This document shows, piece by piece, positions 3,943-59,034 of a stretch of DNA of 64,000 nucleotides. The stretch lies in assembly GCA_032718865.1 (NCBI GenBank), contig JALUTQ010000030.1:62001-126000 (forward strand). Direction: 5' to 3'. Each line of letters begins with the position of its first letter. Within the stretch, counting starts at the first letter, position 1. Source of the DNA: Tilletia caries (taxonomy: Eukaryota > Basidiomycota > Exobasidiomycetes > Tilletiales > Tilletiaceae). The position numbers were made by a program, and so were the translations under genes. The notes beneath the pieces were generated by a model. It worked only from the letters and a program-made list of their open reading frames with translations. It had not been told where the DNA came from and made no database searches.

Positions 3943-5153
3943 CTACCGCCCGATGTACTTGGGCTTGCGCTTCTCTTTGAAGGCACGCAGTCCTTCGAGC
4001 CGGTCTTCGGTTCCGAAGAGACGTTCGTAGCACTCGCGCTCGAAGTCGAGACCCGCTTCGCTGTGGAAGAATTGGGAACAGCAGAAGTCAGTGGGGTTTG
4101 GCAGGGCCTAGGCGGGGCAGGGGTGGGGGGAAAGACTAACATGTCCATCTGGCTGCCCTTGTCGATGGCAAGTTTCGCCGCGCGCAAGGCGAGAGGTCCT
4201 GTGGATGATATACCTCGGGAGAGTGAGTGCTGACCCTGATGCAGAGACGAGGGAAAAGTAATGGACATACCATTCTGACTCATCTCCGTCGCCAGCTCCA
4301 AAGCCTTCCTGTACGCCTCCTCTCCCTCCCCCTGACCCTCCCCTTCTGAAGTCGCGAGATGATCCACAAGGCCAAGCTCAAACGCCTGCCGGGAGTCCAA
4401 CAGCCGAGCGGAGAAGATGAGATCCTTCGCCTTCGAAGGTCCCAACAACCGACTCAACCGCTGCGTGCCCCCCGCACCCGGGATGATCCCCAACCTTGCC
4501 TCCGTCAGACCCAACCTGTTCGCCCCCGGCCCGCCAACCCTGATATCCGCACACAGCGCCAACTCGAGCCCGCCACCCATGGCCAGTCCATCCAGGGCCG
4601 CGATGACGGGCACGGGTAGGGACTCGATGGTACTCATCGCGGAGCGGAGGGAGAGCAGGAAGGCGTCGACTTGCGGGATCGTCATGCTTGCTCGTTCTTT
4701 TAAGTCGGCGCCGGCGCAGAATATACCAGGGGTGGAGGAGCGGATGATGAGCGTTCGTAGGAGGGATGATGGTGGTGGTGAGGAGGAGGAGGAGGAGGAG
4801 GAGGAGGAGGAGGAGGTCTCGACATGGTTTCCTTTGGTGGGTGGGGAGGGGGAGCGCAGGTAGGAGAGGGCGTCGTGTACGTGGGCGAGTAAAGTGGTAG
4901 AGATCGCATTGGCGGCCTTGGGTCGGTTGAGGGTGAGCACGAAGATGCCGCTGCTGCTATCTCCTCCCCCTTCTTCTGCCTTTGTGCCCGGTTCCGCGAT
5001 GCGATCGGCCTGGGAGAGGTAGGCAAGTCTGGTAGGGTCAAAGGGGGAGGCGGACGGGGAGGAAGAATGGGAGAGCCATCGGACGTTTCTGGTGAGGGAT
5101 GTGCTGCCTCTTAGGGGCTGCCACGCAGTACGCATCGCTATCACCGCACTCAT
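3943..5153 (-). CDS. Enoyl-CoA hydratase/isomerase family, AUH-like (mitochondrial)
   Basis: Coding join complement(3943..4060, 4141..4213, 4271..5153). The start at 5153 (MSAVIAMRT) gives 357 aa; an upstream in-frame ATG at 5204 would add 17 residues. The N-terminus is rich in Arg, Ser and Thr, consistent with mitochondrial import. Crotonase signatures are clear: GIFCAGADLKERAS (CoA and oxyanion-hole loop), LDGLAMGGGLELALCADIR, and EARLGIIPGAGGTQRL with the catalytic Glu. The last exon ends FKEKRKPKYIGR, typical of the AUH/methylglutaconyl-CoA hydratase branch of leucine breakdown, though another short-chain hydratase is possible. A run of 12 serines encoded by repeated triplets sits in a variable loop. 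The 57-bp first intron is in frame. Confidence 0.88.
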
Positions 5154-5204
5154 CTTTGCAACGATCGTCGTCGTCGTCGTCGGCCTCCCCATCAGGCAAC
5201 GCAT

Positions 5205-6486
5205 CGTCCTTGTGAGGGAACCTCGGTAAACGTCGGCTATTCAAAAACGCATCGTCCTCCCTCCTCGCCGACGGCATCGCGAACGTCGAGCAGCCCAAGC
5301 ACTATTATAACATCAAACCTCTCAAGGTGGTGGTCAAGGTGCAATCAAAGCGAGATTGGTCAGTGATCGTTGCGTGGCACGCTCCCTGACTCCTTTCCTG
5401 GTAGTCCAGTCCACATTCAGAAAGTCAGCGAATATGGCTGGCGAGAGTCGAGAACGCGCTATTGGTGCTTCCCATCATCGCCGCGACCTATCCCTTTGCG
5501 AAGGCACATCGGCGAGCCCAGACGGGAGCTACGCACAAGGAGGGCAGAACGGAGGGAACGTAAAGAGCTCTCGCTGGAGCCTTTATCAGTAGAAAATGTC
5601 GCATCACGCGCACGAGTCCTCCCACCTGCTCGGCAGTCAGGAACGCTGAAGCGTGGCCCGCACGGTACACCGATATGTAACATGCTGTGTCTCGAATCAC
5701 GAGGCTCGAGGACGATGCTCACCGCCATGCTGCCCAGCGACAGCTGAGCCTCAAATATAGAACAGACCTGAGACGATGGCGCCCCGAGATGCTACTGGCG
5801 ATGTATGTATCACATTTTTTGGAGTTCCAAATCCAATTCACTTCCTCCGCATCCAGCGCAGCCTGTACCCGTCTGCTGCCCCCTTTCCCAACCCCCCACG
5901 GCCCAGCAATGAATCAATAAGGCGCCCAGTCAGGCTCCTTTCACAGACAGGGAGCCCCTGCGCGATGACACGACTTGCTCATTCTATGCTCGTGCTCAGT
6001 GCTCAGAGCACTCATGATTCGTTCGTCATTCATTATTTTGTCTTCTCCCCCCGTCCCCGTCGTTGAGGAAGGTGAGCCATTCGAAGATCTTAGGTTCTGG
6101 ACCATGCACGTAAATCCACGGCCTTCCACAAACCCTCCTTACTTGTAGTTTGGGCGTTATTTTGGGAAGAACCCAAATAAAAGACAGGGGGAGGTCAGTA
6201 GACCCAGCGCTGAACCTTGACTTTTGCGCTTCCGTTCACAACCTCCCGCTGTCGATATGTACTTCCTTTTCCAAGACGACCGTTGAGAAATCGAGATGGA
6301 TTATGAGCCTTTGGAACATATACATCACAGCCAAAGTTTGGTGTCGGTCGTTGTCATGTACTACTAGAGTGTGCTCGACGCTCAGGGTTGTCTCGGGCAC
6401 CGGCGGCATGCAATTTACTATATATATGGCAACCTTCACCGCGGATAACGCATTCATTTGTCGACCATTTCTTATTAGTAACAAAT
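5205..6486. other. Intergenic region, no gene recognised
   Basis: About 1.3 kb between the hydratase gene and the Tc1-like element. Only short, overlapping ORFs without family resemblance occur on either strand. The first part must hold the hydratase promoter; nothing else is identifiable. Confidence 0.4.
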
Positions 6487-6860
6487 GGGGTCATTTGGGG
6501 CCCCCAGCCAAATGCTTTTCCGTCCTGCTTTCCAATGCTTTTTTTTCGAATGCTTCCACAAATGCGAGCATTTGTCAAGCTCAAAAAATGGTCGCGCAAA
6601 TGACCGCCCTGTGTGTGCATCGGGTCACTGCCGCTCCATCCTCACCGCCTCACCGTTCCTGGCGGCGTCACCCGTTTGTCCGTCTGTGCGGACACCCGTC
6701 CGTCCTGGTGTCCTCAGGTTGCAGCCCCTGTCCCTACAAGCCTGCACACGGGTGACTACATCCTCAGCTTGTCATCCATTCTCGTCACTCCTACGTAGAA
6801 ATCGCGTTAGAGGGTTTTGCAAAATGGTTGAGAATAATTATTTTTTTTATTTTTTTTTCG
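6487..6860 (+). repeat. Left inverted terminal/subterminal region of the Tc1-like element
   Basis: Contains in order GGGGTCATTTGGGG, several AAATGC words, AAATGCGAGCATTT, and TTTTGCAAAATGGTTGAGAA followed by a T-rich run. All have inverted counterparts at 10440-10799. Confidence 0.65.
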
Positions 6861-50883: not shown

Positions 50884-51032
50884 CTGTACGCTGTACGCTG
50901 TACGCTGTACGCTGTACGCTGTACGCTGTACGCTGTACGCTGTACGCTGTACGCTGTACGCTGTACGCTGTACGCTGTACGCTGTACGCTGTACGCTGTA
51001 CGCTGTACGCTGTACGCTGTACGCTGTACGCT
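50884..51032. repeat. Heptanucleotide tandem array (CTGTACG)n, about 21 copies
   Basis: Nearly perfect 7-bp repeats run without interruption for about 149 bp, starting some 108 bp upstream of the BCAS3-type start codon. Since 7 is not a multiple of 3 and no register contains a stop, all frames stay open (YAVRCTL on plus, YSVQRTA on minus). These ORFs are artefacts. The array is probably in the 5' leader or promoter and likely length-variable. Confidence 0.9.
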
Positions 51033-51534
51033 GCCGACTGAGCGCAGACAGGGGTCCCCACGAACTCACCTTGCTCTCGATCACCGACGTTGGGACCGCA
51101 GCACGACGAGCTGAGCTGGGCTGGGCTGAACTGAAAGAACGAGGAGGGACAGGAGCGCGAGTTGTAAGGGATACAGATAAATGGGAATGGGAATGGGAAT
51201 GGGAGAGACAAGGCGCAGGTCGTGAGCGAGGCGCGATGTATTTCTGATTCTTTGATGGAGCGATGCCGGCGAAGAAGCGGGCTAAGCTTCCTGTCCTTAT
51301 CCTGCGTATGGGTCTCGGTGTCGTTGCGGTTGCGGTTGCTGTCGTGAGTTGTCGCTGCTGTTGTCGCTGCTGTCGCTCGCAAGATTGATGCCTCCGTCGA
51401 CGTCGATCTCCAGCTCATCGCTCATCGCTCATCGCTCATCCCTCAGTCTGGCGCTCCTCGGCCCTCGCACTGACTCGATATCACAGCCCCGATCTCACGC
51501 CTGACGCCACGCCTCGCCTCATCAAACGCGGGGG

Positions 51535-51544
51535 GGTGGGGGAC
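51535..51544. repeat. Target-site duplication, left copy
   Basis: GGTGGGGGAC directly precedes the left TAGTCTGG terminus and is repeated exactly at 58570-58579. If the termini are taken as CTAG...CTAG, the duplication is 8 bp (GTGGGGGA). Confidence 0.75.
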
Positions 51545-51630
51545 TAGTCTGGTAACACCAGACCTTGTAACTCTCAAATGAGCTAAAGCACTATACCGCG
51601 TACGCGGTCTGGGCGCACTCGACCCGATTC
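51545..51630 (+). repeat. Left TIR of the DUF6589/RecQ element
   Basis: Outer 20 bp form a hairpin (GTCTGGT / ACACCAGAC); the inner block GCGGTCTGGGCGCACTCGACCC lies near 51604-51625. The middle 40 bp have diverged from the right TIR. Confidence 0.75.
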
Positions 51631-51713
51631 TGAGTGGAAGTGGTCGAGCAAAACCTGTCCAAACCCTCCATTCTCTACTCTTCCCTTCCAACCATTGAGT
51701 TCTCCACACAGAC

Positions 51714-54700
51714 ATGACGACGCAAGAAGATCATCCCCCGTGAGTATGGCGCACATCCTTTACAGCCAAGTTTGTCTTGCCCGTCTGCCGCCAGCAGTAT
51801 TGGTCACACGGAGGAGGGTTGCAAGTGCAGTTTGGTCCATGATCCAATCGACTAACATCACCTTTACATTTGGTCAACAGAAGGGCCCGCATGTCGCGCC
51901 TTCAGAGGGTTCTGGCCGTCCATGATACCATGGCAGATGTGGGACTCTCGCTTTCCGACTTTCTGGACGAGTTTTTCACAAGTTCGGACGTCAGTCTCCA
52001 GCGCCAGCGCTCCAACTGGCTTCTCTACATACCCGGCCGGCAATACGGTCCTCTACGATGCGCTCGTCTATTGAGCAGAGCGGTATTCAGCACTGAGGAC
52101 GAGGCGGCGATCACATACGGCAAGGGTTTGGCCGATATATTGCTCGAAAGGATCACTGTTGAAAAAGATCAGGCGTCCCACGAGCCAGGATTCCGAGCTT
52201 CCGACTTCTTAGGAGATGCCAGTGCTCCAGAAACAGATCAACTCCTTTATCTGCGCACCCTAATGGAACAACATCTACCTGTCACAGTCCGCATCATGGA
52301 ATGTCTTTGCGGCGTTGGCGATGCATCCGCGTATGGTCCACAGCGGAGCGAAATCAGTACGGAGGAGGGTGCTACATGGTCACTGAAATCAGATAATGTG
52401 AGTGACTGAGTGGTGTATGCAGCTATGTCACATAGCTCATAAACCTTTGTTCTTCAACGTACAGGCCGTCGTTGTTTGCCTTTCGATCGCGTTGAACCTG
52501 AGGAGCGAGCGTATGAATCGATTCCAGACTGTGTTCGGTCTCATCCTCAGGCTCAAGCATGCGCCGAAAAGCATACAAACAATGCTCAATCGCCTTGGAG
52601 TCGCTACCAGTCGGGACACCAGCTCGCGTCATTTGGTGCACTTCAATAAACTGGCACTTGCGAAAGCTCAGTCCCTGATGAAGGATGTCGACGCCGTTCA
52701 CGTTCTTCTCTACGACAATGTAGACATATACGTGCAAGAGCGATCAAACCAAGTCACTTCGAACACTCGAATGGTCAATTTAACAAGTCGCACGTATGTC
52801 CAGCTTCCAAAGTCTTTTTCTTCTGCGGCACTTTCCACTACCATCCTTTCCGCCCTTGACGCCCCGCGCAGTTTGGACGAGGACGAATTCATGGGCAGAA
52901 GTGCCTTTCTTCGAAGCGCTGGGCAGTACTTCCTGGCACGAGAGCTTTTGGATGTCAAGAAGGCATCTATCGACGTTCAAAACAAGCATACACAGCGTAC
53001 AATTCAACTTCTGCGGGAATATAAGGAAGCCTGTCAAAACGCGCATCGTCTGGACGAAATCGAAGCAGCTCAGTGGCAGCTTGCTCCTCTTCCTTTGATC
53101 GAGGCAAACGAAGGGAGCATAGACGGTAATCTGGCCGTGCTCGAGGACAGCTCGATCACTTTGCGCATATACGACGAGGTAGAAGTCCCGACCAACGTAC
53201 CCTCTTCCCAGGCCGATCAATCTGCGCCTGAAGCAACAAAGTGGGAGCTGCTCCGGACCAGCGTATTGCCAGAGGGAAACGTCTTGCTCGTTGTCGGAGA
53301 CCTGAAAACTCACAGGAATGTTGAAGCAGGGTTGAAGGCACGTCGGCAGCATGTCAAAGCGGAAGACAAATACAACTTTGTCCGTTCTTCCTCAGCTCCC
53401 TGGCATTTGCACTTGAATTGGGTTTGGGCGATCTTCAAGATCCACTTCGCAACAAATAAAGTAGGATATGCCGCCAGCCTCGAGCGTCTTCGTGATGCGC
53501 TACGCCGCGGAAAATCTGCGTTGCGAGAGGAAGAGCTACTTTACAATGAAGCCTGGAATTTGATCAAGCACACATTCAGCGGGTGGATTCGTTACCTTTT
53601 CCGGTGAGTCGCCTGGATCATCGCCAAGGACCAGGCCTCTGAAATCCTGAAGTGTGAGGACTTACTCTTTGCCATTGTTGTCTTGGGATTGCGGTTTGCC
53701 GGTAGGACACAACTGGCCAAACAAAAAAAGGATCTGGCGAAATGGACCCCCACGAGCGTTGAAGCGATCCGCGAACTGGTTGACGGTGTGTGGGAGACGG
53801 TGTTCAGCGATTCCTCGGTACAAGCTCTCGAAGCCTGTCAGGATGAGGTCGGCCTGAACGCACGTCGATTTCTTCGGGATACCCTCTTGGCGCTGGAGTG
53901 GGACGACGCCTGTCGCAAAGGGGACGTTGGAAGAATGTTAGCCGCGCAGAAGTTTCTGGCCATCGCGTTCGCCGGCGTCGGGAAGCATCAGTACTCACAG
54001 GCATGCCTTGACGACATTTGGGCCCATAAGGTGCTTCCTGCTGATACATGGCGGACGCTGGCTGCGGCTCGGCTCATCAACCGCTTCGGAGCACGTGAAA
54101 GCTTCATCGGGGCAGATCTTTATCAAGAACATCTGAACAAGGAACTACAGGTCAGTGGCAAAGCTACACGCTGTGTATACACTCTGCTTCTCAGTATCTG
54201 GGCTGACTCACGGATCCCAATCTCTCAGCGCACCGATACTACGCACGGAGCAGCAACAGTTGTTGCGCGGTTGCGAGACTCGTTCTCCGCAGTATGCGAG
54301 ATCTCCAGGTCGCTACACGGCGCACATGCGTACCTGTTCGACGAGAACGGCCGAAATCTGGAGAGAGAGAGCAAATTTGTCAAAGACATCGAGCGGATTT
54401 CGAATTTGGCACAACAAGATCGACTGTTTGACGCACGGCAGGGTAGACTTTCAGATGCGACACTGGCTCAGCGAGCAGCCCAACGGCCAAAGGAAAACGC
54501 TGCCGGAGTGCCGAGTGGAATAGATCTGCTCGCAGACTTGGTTTCGGCGAAGTGCGGCGACGATGCTCTCGAACGGGGTTTGTTGTATTTGCGGGCGAGG
54601 GGCTTACGTCGGTGGACCAAGGTGCGGAAAGCGTGGGACAGGCTCGATGGCTTGCCGAGCTCGGACGACGACAACGATCATCAGAACGAGACATCGTTCG

Positions 54701-54774
54701 ACCCCAGCAAAGACGTCGAGATGGACTCACTAGACGATATGAAAGATGATCCGGATGTTTTTCAGCGACGGTGA
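51714..54774 (+). CDS. DUF6589-like protein, candidate transposase of the element
   Basis: Exons 51714..51739, 51881..52397, 52465..53603, 53706..54150 and 54229..54774 (890 aa); the last intron is 78 bp and in frame. Features typical of DUF6589, a family of unknown function common in basidiomycetes: FGLILRLKHAPKSIQTMLNR, LLYDNVDIYVQERSN (Asp265), APLPLIEANEGSIDGNL near 387-403, NVLLVVGDLKTHRN (Asp460), APWHLHLNWVWAIFKIHF, then GVGKHQYSQACLDDI, LINRFGARESFIGADLYQEH and LN. The acidic residues in YDN and VGD within an alternating strand/helix context would fit an RNase H-like nuclease; this is inference. The acidic tail ends at TGA 54774. An overlapping frame continues FSDGDIQSSERD...EEEEELEWALAEEE to 54885, so a one-base frameshift near the C-terminus is possible. 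Confidence 0.75.
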
Positions 54775-54955
54775 CATACAATCGTCGGAGCGAGATCACA
54801 GGCATCAAGCGTGGCTGCGAAGGGAGGAAGAGGAGGAGCTGGAGTGGGCCCTGGCTGAAGAGGAACTAATGGCAGATGAGGAATGAGGATAAATTATTGG
54901 CGCGTACACAAGAAGAAGAATGATCAATGTACTACTCACCAGTCACCACTGAGTT

Positions 54956-57900
54956 TCAAATTAGTATCGCTGCCGTGAGAGCATCGTCATCATTGTGGAC
55001 GTCAGAGGACTGGCCTTTGGATACCCAGCCATTCCGAGTCAGTCGAGTAGCAATGGGCAGCGTGAGACTGGCATGGGCCCATACTTCAAGAATGGGCTGC
55101 AATTCGGAGATGTGGTTCGCTGACATGCCGGAAGAATCACCCAGAAGACTGCGAGTATAGTGTTCGTCAATAACGTCGTTGTGGACAGCGCGCGCGAGTA
55201 GGCGAGGTGCTCTGTCGATGAGACCACCCAGCGTTTCGTCTGGCATCACAGACCGGGCCGTTTGCCAATCTTCCACACCTGATCGGCTTTTGAAGATCTG
55301 TTGTCTCCACTTCCATACCTCACGACCCAGATCGCGACAGAGCTCGACGGTATCGACATGAGCGGGAGGAACAGTGAGACGCGCTGCCGCCCTGATGCCG
55401 CTGGGCTCCACTGGAGCTCGTTGTACAGAGTTGCCCTCCGTGCACTGAGAGCAACAAGTAGGATTGGCTCTGTCGGCCTCGGCGTGTGTCTCTTGTGCCA
55501 AAGTGTTGCGCCAGTAGAAGCAGGACTGGGTATCCGAGACCGGTCCCGTGCCAATTGCAAGTGAGGAGATTGCAGGATGTGCCGTCCTGAACGGCTCGAC
55601 AGTCTGCATGACCGGCGCAAAGTCCAATCGAGTGAGGCGACCGACGGCGGAACGCAAGCAACCGGGCGTCAAAAGCCATGCTTTCAGATGCTCATCGAGG
55701 TTCGACCACTGCTGCTGCAACCGCGTAGAAAGACTTGAAGTAGGCGCTGGCGCTGGAGCCTGTGATGCTTCTCGACCTTGGCCAGCCTTGAATGCGTCCC
55801 TGCATTGAATCACCCAGGTTGGACATAGCAAGAGAGCCGCCGCACGCGATTGCGGACCTCGAGCACCCCGTCCAAAGTGTTGAACCAAGGCTCTGAAGTC
55901 TTTGGGAAGCTCCCACTGAATGACCATGTCCACGTCCGGTAGATCGATTCCCATGCCAAGAGCCTCCGTCGCAATGACGACCCGTATCGTGCCGGCTAAC
56001 AGACCATTCATCGTCCATCGCTTCTGGCTTGTCGTGTCGGCGGCCGTGAACGTCGCGATGCTGTTTCGAAGTTCGGGAGGGAGATGTTGCTGAAGAACCT
56101 CCAGAATCGACACCGCCTTATCCCTGGAATTGACGTATATGATCGTTTTCGGCAACTGGCCCGTCCCTTGCCTTGGTTGGATAACTTCGACGAGGTGGAG
56201 GAACGACGAGATCGGATGCTGGAACGCCTGGATATCGTACGCGCACCCGTCTCGTTCCTTCCCAACATCCAGTGCGAAGAATGGCAGTCGGCCGAACTGT
56301 AGGGCTGTACAGATAGCGGGTAGGGATGGGCCATTCAGAGTTGCCGACATCGCGAGGAGCGGAACATTCGAGTTGAACTTGGCCCGGAGCACAGCCAGCT
56401 TGCCGAACTCTGGCCGAAATGGAGCCTTGTTGGAATTGGACCTGACTATGCCCCAATCATACACGACATGCGCCTCGTCAACCACGATGGCGCAGAGGTC
56501 TTTGGCCCATCTGCTCCCGGTCACAGCTGTACTGACTCTGCTGTTGTTGAACAGCATCTCCGGAGAGGCAAAGACGACTTGGGCGGTTCCGTTCTCGACC
56601 AGGTGTAAAGGACTGGATGCTTTTCCCTTTCCCTTTTTGTCTTGCTTGTGCGCCCGACGACAAGACTGTAAAATGTAAAGTGCATACATCCATATTTGTC
56701 AGTGCCCAGATCATCCTAGCCCAAGAAATTCAGTTCATAGACACTCATTCAGCACACTGACCTCTGTGTTCAAAGTGTCGGCGTTAAGTGCGACTGCCGA
56801 TATACCAGCTGCGCGCAGCAACTCGACCTGTTGATGTCCAGAAAATCAGAGCCTAGCATGGTGACAGGCTGAGAGCAGACGATTCACTACCATCGACCAT
56901 GCCTACCTGCTGTTTCTCGATCTCTTTTTAGTGCGGTCATGACGAGAATTTTTGGCCTTTGGCAGTATGAGTGGTATGTAGTACCAGATCATGCTCTTGC
57001 CTGAGCCCGTCCCGGCGGCAACAACGCCGTCCATCCCAGCGATGATGCGGTACACGGTCTCGACCTGCCATGGCTTCGGTATAAAATTCATGTTGTGCAT
57101 GGCAGCGCGCACTGCCGCGGTGGGGACGTGTAGCGGAGGCAACTGGCTTGCGGATGATCGAGATACATGTATGCTACGCTCCGATCCTGTGTGTATCAGA
57201 AAGTGTAAAGATTGAAGGAGGTTCATTCACAAAATCACACGACGACTAGGGAGGGGTGAAGGGATAGCTCACGTTTGCGTTTCATGCTATTGGTGCTTTC
57301 TTCCGGCAGCGCCGCCGAACTTCCGGACGCTTGAACTGACTCTACACCCATCACCGTCGCCGTCGTCGGCGCTGCTGCTGCTTCTGGTGCTGAGTCGGGT
57401 CCGTGCCGAGCGTGAGGGAGCTCGGTCACTGCAGATGGCGGGCGAGGTGCGGCAGAGGGGCGTGGTTCATGGGCAGAGAGGCTCTGCGCGAGCGCACACA
57501 AAGCATCTGCGCCAATCTGATCATTGTTCAAGGAAGGGGAACTGTAGAACAATGTGTAGGAGTGTCACTTGTCAGTGATCAACATTCAACATGCGCGGGG
57601 CGTCTGTGTACGCAACGTAGATAGGAGCGCGTCCGCGTTGCACCAGTCCCATCTACTCACACATTCTCCACCTGATCCGAACCGCGTAGCGCACAGCTTG
57701 GTCCGTGGGGAAGATCGTACGAGTCTAAACGAGGTCTCTGGCACACAAAGAGAAGGAAATGATGTCGGTCAGCTGCATGTGGTTTCAGGCGTGGGATGAC
57801 CCAGCATGACACCGAGATACTGACCTTTGAGCCCCGAGACGAACCATCTTCTTCATCGACGTCGAGTGCGAGCGCAAGGGCAACCACAGCGGCAGTGGCG

Positions 57901-58067
57901 GCTTGAGGTATGGATGCTGCTTGCTGTGGAACGCTGACTATGGCGGCCAAAGGCGTCCGAGACGTTCCGCTTGATGATTGAGGTGTCCCGGGCATAGCTG
58001 TGTGATGAGAGCTGTAGATCATGCGTGGCTCAGTACGGTGTGCTTTGGCATTCAATGATGCAAGCAT
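54956..58067 (-). pseudogene. RecQ-like DEAH helicase of the element, frameshifted in exon 4
   Basis: Exons on the minus strand: 57835..58067, 57661..57737, 57273..57541, 56907..57186, 56762..56827, 54956..56665; an exon further 5' is possible. Motifs: KPWQVETVYRIIAG, Walker A AAGTGSGKSMIWYY, ISAVALNADTLN, VVFASPEMLF, VVDEAHVVYDWG, PLLAMSATLNG, KTIIYVNSRDKAV, RVVIATEALGMGIDLPDVDM, VIQWELPKDFRALVQHFGRG, and a Cys-containing region (GCLRSAVGR ... CCSQCTEG) where RecQ has its zinc site. Exon 4 is 280 nt; the splice phases demand 278. Two A runs (5 A each, at about 56927 and 56950) each carry one base too many between LPKAK and VELLRAAG. The gene is therefore broken here, or the assembly has homopolymer errors. 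Confidence 0.8.
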
Positions 58068-58484
58068 AAGGCGACAAAGAACTCACTGGCCGTCCAGAGG
58101 GCAGAGACGTAGGCGGGAGAGCGCGACAGTTGCTGTGCCGAGGAAGGCGTCCAGTCTCGCGACAGTTGCGTCGGAGGCCGCTGTTCTGTACGATGGGAGT
58201 CAAAGCATGAGGCAAAGGATCAGCTGGGCATAATGACAAGCGCAGCACGTCCCCTACGGCCTACTCACAAGTCACAGCTGGGCGAGAGTCCGATAGAGCC
58301 GAGAGTGACGACGGATGGCATCCAGCAGGCTGCTGAGCCTGGTGAGTGGTGGCGAGGAGCGTACTGCGATCACTGGTTGGAGACTTGTAGTGTCCGGATC
58401 TGGTTATCATGATCGGGCCTTACAAAGAGAAAAAAATCGTATGTGGTGACAAGTTGGGTCGGTTGTAATTGGGACTTCCAGCCA

Positions 58485-58569
58485 AAACTGGGTCGAGTGC
58501 GTCCAGACCGTCTCCACGGGATCCTGTCCTGTCATCACGTGCGTGCGACGGTCTGGTGTGACCAGACTA
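58485..58569 (-). repeat. Right TIR of the DUF6589/RecQ element
   Basis: On the minus strand it begins TAGTCTGGTCACACCAGACC, contains CACGTGATGACAGGACAG and ends GGTCTGGACGCACTCGACCC. It matches the left end of the 658-bp element more closely than its own left partner. Confidence 0.8.
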
Positions 58570-58579
58570 GGTGGGGGAC
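58570..58579. repeat. Target-site duplication, right copy
   Basis: GGTGGGGGAC immediately follows the right terminus, identical to 51535-51544. Confidence 0.75.
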
Positions 58580-59034
58580 GCTCATCTCGCATGGCAAGTT
58601 TAAACACCGAGATCAGCCACTCAACAGAGGGGCAACGCATGTGACATGTGACATGTGACATGTGACATGTGACATGTGACAAGGCTCTGAACATCGTCGA
58701 TTACTAGAACTGGAAGGAGTGCAATGGACAAAAGGCTGCCCAGCTCTGTGGGCGAGAGATTGGAAGTAACGAAGCAGGGTCGAAGGTAGACATTGGCGGG
58801 CTCCAGGATGGATGTGTGGCCACGTCGCTCATCACCGACTGGGCTCAGCTCGGTGCGCTGTTGTCGGTGGAACACGGCAACGTCTTCCGACGCCTCGAAC
58901 CCGAATGCATTTGCTTGTACCTCAACCTGCTTGACCATTAGGGAGAACAAGTAATATCTGAAGCTTCAGGACAGGCCAGTTCATAGTCGCCGATACGCGC
59001 TTCAAATCTGGACTCACGTTTAAGAAGATGGGCG
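58580..59034. other. Spacer between two mobile elements
   Basis: Contains the ATGTGAC array (58639-58680) and short ORFs without motifs; no gene is supported. Confidence 0.4.
58639..58680. repeat. Heptanucleotide tandem repeat (ATGTGAC)x6
   Basis: Six perfect copies of a 7-bp unit, 60 bp outside the right target-site duplication of the 7-kb element. Confidence 0.9.

Follow-up and report, generated by a model that had tools for sequence, protein, structure and literature searches.

A probable AcademH-type transposon in Tilletia, with a DUF6589 protein as candidate transposase and a RecQ-like helicase as partner

What kind of mobile element contains just two genes, one for a protein of the Pfam family of unknown function DUF6589 and the other for a RecQ-like helicase, and which of the two proteins would move it? 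The question is raised by a 7025-bp element of Tilletia caries, located at 51545-58569 of a stretch of 64,000 nucleotides (contig JALUTQ010000030.1, positions 62,001 to 126,000; the window hereafter). A first-pass annotation of the window, made from the sequence alone, had described inverted ends, an exact flanking repeat and two convergent spliced genes. We consider it very probable that the element is a two-gene transposon of AcademH type, in which the DUF6589 protein is the DDE transposase and the RecQ-like helicase its partner.

The element, its ends and its copies

The element is bounded by terminal inverted repeats (TIRs) that start TAGTCTGG, and is flanked by an exact 10-bp target duplication, GGTGGGGGAC, read from the sequence at 51535-51544 on the left and 58570-58579 on the right. 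Both the inverted ends and the flanking repeat of the first-pass annotation are thus confirmed. The left TIR (51545-51641, forward strand) matches the genome at 42 places or more, and the right TIR (58474-58569, reverse strand) at 40, with 40 of 107 candidates scored. The outer 20 bp of the two ends differ by a single mismatch; inward of these there is a diverged stretch, followed by a 49-nt block with 78% complementarity between the ends. The length of 85 bp given earlier for the ends was approximately correct, although the similarity comes in patches, spanning ~97-120 bp with gaps. When the two 120-bp ends are aligned locally they score 85, whereas base shuffling gave no more than 33 in 500 trials, which rules out a chance inverted repeat.

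A search of the genome (38.1 Mb in 40 contigs) found the tip pattern 147 times (76 forward, 71 reverse), compared with once for a reversed-pattern control. Copies at C27, C35 and C4 and two on C13 are 99.49-99.68% identical to the window element over the 4881-6808 of 7025 bp compared. The element is therefore mobile, and recently so, as had been proposed. A further copy at C10 is 97.4% identical over 3814 bp, and the C10 pieces examined showed no exact tip, so that the linked ends anticipated at other copies recur genome-wide but not in every piece. A second subfamily is 69% identical to the window element over 3266 bp, and the genome contains at least five additional multi-copy DUF6589 families, with many copy pairs 94-99% identical. 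For one divergent family (C25:274 and C1:531) the edge of the left homology was seen, and no TIR was found between the compared pieces.

Target duplications are present in 26 of the 32 copies examined; in 25 of these they measure 10 bp and in the other 9 bp. In the first set, where both ends were examined, 18 of 20 copies have a duplication (17 of 10 bp and the one of 9 bp), the exceptions being C4:400304 and the short copy C13:26974. The second set comprised the remaining adjacent facing tip pairs <10 kb apart among 100 listed tips, chosen by eye; here a 10-bp duplication was found in eight of 12 copies and was absent in four, including C9:26367, where a 10-bp repeat is displaced by four bases. 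When left and right flanks were mismatched as a control, 380 combinations (19 of which used a window flank offset by one base) gave one 4-bp repeat and none longer. No position is fixed within the 16 10-bp duplications tabulated.

For the short copy at C3:1149281, a sequence made by joining its flanks, with one duplication retained, had 17 matches in the genome. Fourteen cross the junction uninterrupted (several at 98-100%), two are the copy's own flanks and one stops short. This copy has inserted into a repeat whose other members are uninterrupted, and so insertion with a 10-bp duplication is shown. The corresponding search with C5:1852819 gave five genome matches, none of them across the junction, and that with the window copy found nothing besides the two flanks of that copy. 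Of three copies tried, one thus has paralogous empty sites in this genome.

Some copies are arranged unusually. Two near-identical copies on C13 (486561-494038 and 495129-500155) lie in opposite orientation 1.1 kb apart, each with its own 10-bp duplication, as expected for a local hop. The copy at C4:400304-407329 is nearly full-length and 99.5% identical, with intact tips; the lack of a target duplication, together with another tip 3.7 kb off, suggests recombination between copies. Three tandem tips spaced by 56 bp form a small array of transposon ends at C21:395841-395972, and the 124-bp element at C9:26367-26490, noted above for its shifted repeat, is hardly more than its two ends.

Each tip of the window element contains a 7-bp dyad with a 3-nt centre (GTCTGGT-AAC-ACCAGAC), at 51547-51563 on the left and 58551-58567 on the right, the latter read both from the sequence and from the genome tip pattern. 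The search pattern left the five central bases unconstrained, and 100 of the 147 tips were listed and tallied by hand. The listed tips all read TAGTCTGGYMACRCCAGACC, i.e. a 7-bp dyad about 3 nt, and fall into three forms (84, 10 and six tips). The innermost pair of the dyad is T-A or C-G in every one of these 100, so that a single double change preserves the symmetry. At one end of the C28 copy the tip is altered and departs from the dyad pattern. The dyad might be bound by a dimer or fold into a hairpin. The evidence for this is slight, since the double change may be a single event passed on to many copies.

The two genes and their recurrence as a pair

The DUF6589 gene (51714-54774, forward strand) would encode 890 amino acids, and is probably that of a DDE transposase. 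In the splice model it has five exons (51714-51739, 51881-52397, 52465-53603, 53706-54150 and 54229-54774) separated by GT-AG introns, and the reading frame is open across all five in the window copy. Pfam PF20231 (DUF6589) matches two separate exon frames, with E values of 5.9e-17 and 3.5e-28. Its nearest match is a protein of T. controversa, with 99% identity across 65% of the query. No relatives beyond Tilletia were found among 16 protein-search matches, for which ~8000 candidates sharing most words were scored; an alignment-based search on the same scale (~8000 scored) gave six matches, all known already and only from Tilletia.

Three acidic residues are invariant in an alignment of distant DUF6589 families. 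The candidate first catalytic aspartate is D265 (LLYDNVDIY; 52714-52716, forward strand as are the others), found in 12 of the 12 aligned sequences with a residue there; the candidate second is D460 (VVGDLKTHRN; 53299-53301), found in all 13 aligned sequences; and the candidate glutamate is E702 (DLYQEHLNK; 54127-54129), again in 12 of 12 with a residue there. The closest structural matches of the predicted models, found using VIA-align, are the hAT (Hermes), P element, ISCth4 and Transib transposases, with 220-313 residues aligned at 7-12% identity among the first 11 matches of each model. The order of strands and helices fits an RNase H-fold DDE transposase, with Z scores mostly <8 and a predicted local distance difference test score (pLDDT) <50 in the region of the glutamate. 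Given the invariant acidic triad and the fact that DDE transposases head the structural matches, the protein itself looks like a DDE transposase, and probably is one.

The RecQ-like helicase gene (54956-58321, reverse strand) has several exons, its start and 5′ exons having been placed by eye using the T. laevis protein P0029. The frame of its main exon (54956-56698, reverse strand, 580 amino acids) contains a DEAH box, motifs III-VI and a C-terminal cysteine cluster, identified by eye. Pfam Helicase_C is matched with E 1.3e-13, and DEAD under its cut-off. The top solved-structure match of this exon is the Bloom helicase (BLM; E 8.1e-14), and its top NCBIfam model is the RecQ family (9.6e-26), under the curated cut-off of the model (TIGR00614; 90.6 bits compared with 219.8, for a main exon that lacks motif I and was scored separately from the 5′ frame). 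Over 24% the helicase exon is 97% identical to a T. laevis fragment, which together with the T. controversa match places the host near those two species; the protein search also found a Paxillus helicase (P0034). The helicase frame of the window copy is off by one base relative to all three sister copies compared, and so this copy probably yields no working helicase. Thus two convergent spliced genes are indeed present, as first described, but in the window copy the transposase gene is open and the helicase gene frameshifted. No other open reading frame of at least 300 amino acids was found between the ends, in agreement with the earlier statement that these are the only genes.

The pair recurs. 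In the genome 75 matches to PF20231 resolve into 48 DUF6589 loci, and at 42 of these sequence matching the main helicase exon lies no more than 5 kb away, every time downstream and on the opposite strand; no pair in any other orientation was found among the 42. On the helicase side (75 of 82 candidates scored) 65 matches resolve into 55 loci; 13 of these lack a DUF6589 neighbour, and host helicases may be among them. No helicase match accompanies the remaining six DUF6589 loci: the C13:495129 copy, C1:1389758 (140 bits) and four weaker ones scoring 35-71 bits, namely C3:1466037 and three on C40. Elsewhere in Tilletia, the protein searches pair six of the 16 DUF6589 proteins with a helicase that has the consecutive locus tag and lies on a contig of equal length, three of them from T. 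indica and the others from T. maclaganii. The presence of 48 DUF6589 loci rules out a single-copy host gene pair, and the pairing, together with the D-D-E set and the predicted DDE-like fold, bears out the earlier suggestion that DUF6589 is the likely mobilizing enzyme with a RecQ-type partner.

A comparison of the window element's subfamily with the second subfamily gave ratios of nonsynonymous to synonymous divergence (dN/dS) of 0.09-0.15 in two exons of DUF6589 and 0.19-0.20 in the main exon of the helicase; these ratios are rough, as dS is 1.6-1.9. Both proteins look conserved.

To the left of the element, at a distance of 0.5 kb, 21 perfect copies of the 7-mer CTGTACG form an array (50884-51033), and there are other 7-mer arrays at 51413-51445 and, past the right end, at 58638-58681. 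Nine long frames at 2023-50872 of the window were scanned against Pfam; five belong to host-type families (amidase, enoyl-CoA hydratase, SNF2/RING helicase, ankyrin repeats and, under its cut-off, BCAS3 WD40) and four have no match.

Proposed mechanism and alternative readings

As a putative RNase H-fold DDE transposase, the DUF6589 protein would bind the ends of the element (as a dimer, perhaps, at the short dyad of each tip), excise it, and join its 3′ ends to target strands at positions 10 bp apart; repair of the 10-nt gaps would then generate the 10-bp target duplication. The RecQ-like helicase would act as its dedicated partner, opening DNA while the ends are processed or the gaps repaired. 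Shorter elements with retained ends would move by means of proteins made elsewhere. In view of the ends and the duplications, cut-and-paste is preferred to a replicative route of transposition.

Six of the 32 copies have no abutting duplication, so that the recurrence of duplications foreseen by the first-pass annotation is incomplete, and the scores of the structural matches of DUF6589 are modest.

AcademH elements were reportedly first described by Kojima in 2020 (Mob DNA 11:15), as having a transposase, a helicase and 9-10 bp duplications. The earlier view that no described superfamily has such a gene pair is therefore not upheld. In the literature, AcademH (helicase; 9- or 10-bp duplications) is distinguished from AcademX (nuclease; 3 or 4 bp) (PMC10045372), AcademH is reported at low copy number in Basidiomycota, Ascomycota and Mucoromycota (PMC10799480), and Academ is ranked among the DDD/E superfamilies (PMC9587614). 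Putative Academ elements are also reported from the mushroom Marasmius oreades (PMC8290104). The Tilletia element is provisionally filed under AcademH by its anatomy.

A more far-reaching proposal is that all DUF6589 proteins are DDE transposases of helicase-partnered transposons, the Tilletia lineage forming its own superfamily or deep branch in which transposition depends on the helicase and the dyad; this is unlikely. Since the comparison with AcademH was one of described features, the element might alternatively belong to a separate DDE superfamily, not Academ, that gained its helicase independently and acquired a 10-bp duplication by convergence. Helicases are reported in more than one DNA transposon superfamily, i.e. 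in AcademH (PMC10045372) and in KolobokH, which carries a RecQ helicase and has a C/DxxH motif between the second D and the last E (PMC9587614). Against this, gene content, fungal host range and a 9-10 bp duplication all agree with AcademH as described, and a separate superfamily seems to us quite unlikely.

The DUF6589 and helicase genes could also be passengers in an element moved in trans by an unrelated transposase. Twenty-two of the 32 duplication-tested copies sit at places with no DUF6589 match, and mobilization in trans therefore occurs in the window family. Yet the pair is found in several divergent families and in other species as well as at its 42 loci here, both genes look conserved, DUF6589 has its invariant D-D-E set, and the ends enclose no further long frame. 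We regard passenger genes as very improbable.

Kolobok elements have a target duplication of TTAA, and hAT and P elements one of 8 bp. Membership of hAT or P is disfavoured by the duplications of 10 bp (one of 9 bp) found here. A KolobokH element, i.e. a Kolobok transposase with a RecQ helicase, from fungi only, would account for a RecQ-like helicase within a fungal DNA transposon but is scarcely credible, since the target duplication, instead of TTAA, is a varied 10-bp sequence in 25 of the 26 copies that have one and 9 bp long in the remaining copy. In the alignment rows shown, H495, the conserved His inspected after the second Asp, has no C or D three residues upstream, where the KolobokH motif would have one.

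An AcademH-type element with DUF6589 as its transposase would provide a probable function for a Pfam family that has none (PF20231), and fungal proteins named DUF6589 would then be transposon genes, to be masked rather than read as host genes. The family is a young, multi-copy set of AcademH type, accompanied by short copies that match it and by precise duplications and empty sites at paralogous positions. Such sets are suited to testing the role of the helicase in AcademH-type elements.

Comparison with known systems

The hAT (Hermes), P element, ISCth4 and Transib transposases are the best fold matches of the DUF6589 protein, yet at the low identity given above, and none of them is known to have a helicase partner. 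The helicase has the superfamily 2 (SF2) core of RecQ helicases such as BLM, RecQ1, WRN and bacterial RecQ; unlike these it is encoded within a transposon, and it falls under the curated RecQ cut-offs. With KolobokH the element shares its nature as a fungal DNA transposon with a RecQ helicase (PMC9587614), and is set apart from Kolobok by its duplications.

No link of DUF6589 or PF20231 to Academ elements was found in the literature searched, the original AcademH paper and most subscription papers lying outside it; the four papers that mention PF20231 look unrelated, judged by their titles and the first lines of the abstracts. Like AcademH as described elsewhere (PMC10045372, PMC10799480), the element is a basidiomycete DNA transposon with a helicase and 9-10 bp duplications, and it too has TIRs; D265, D460 and E702 and the DDE-like predicted fold are compatible with an Academ-type DDD/E transposase, and within the features compared no difference from AcademH was found. 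We would thus describe a new family of a known kind, in which the mildly new feature is DUF6589 as the transposase of such elements.
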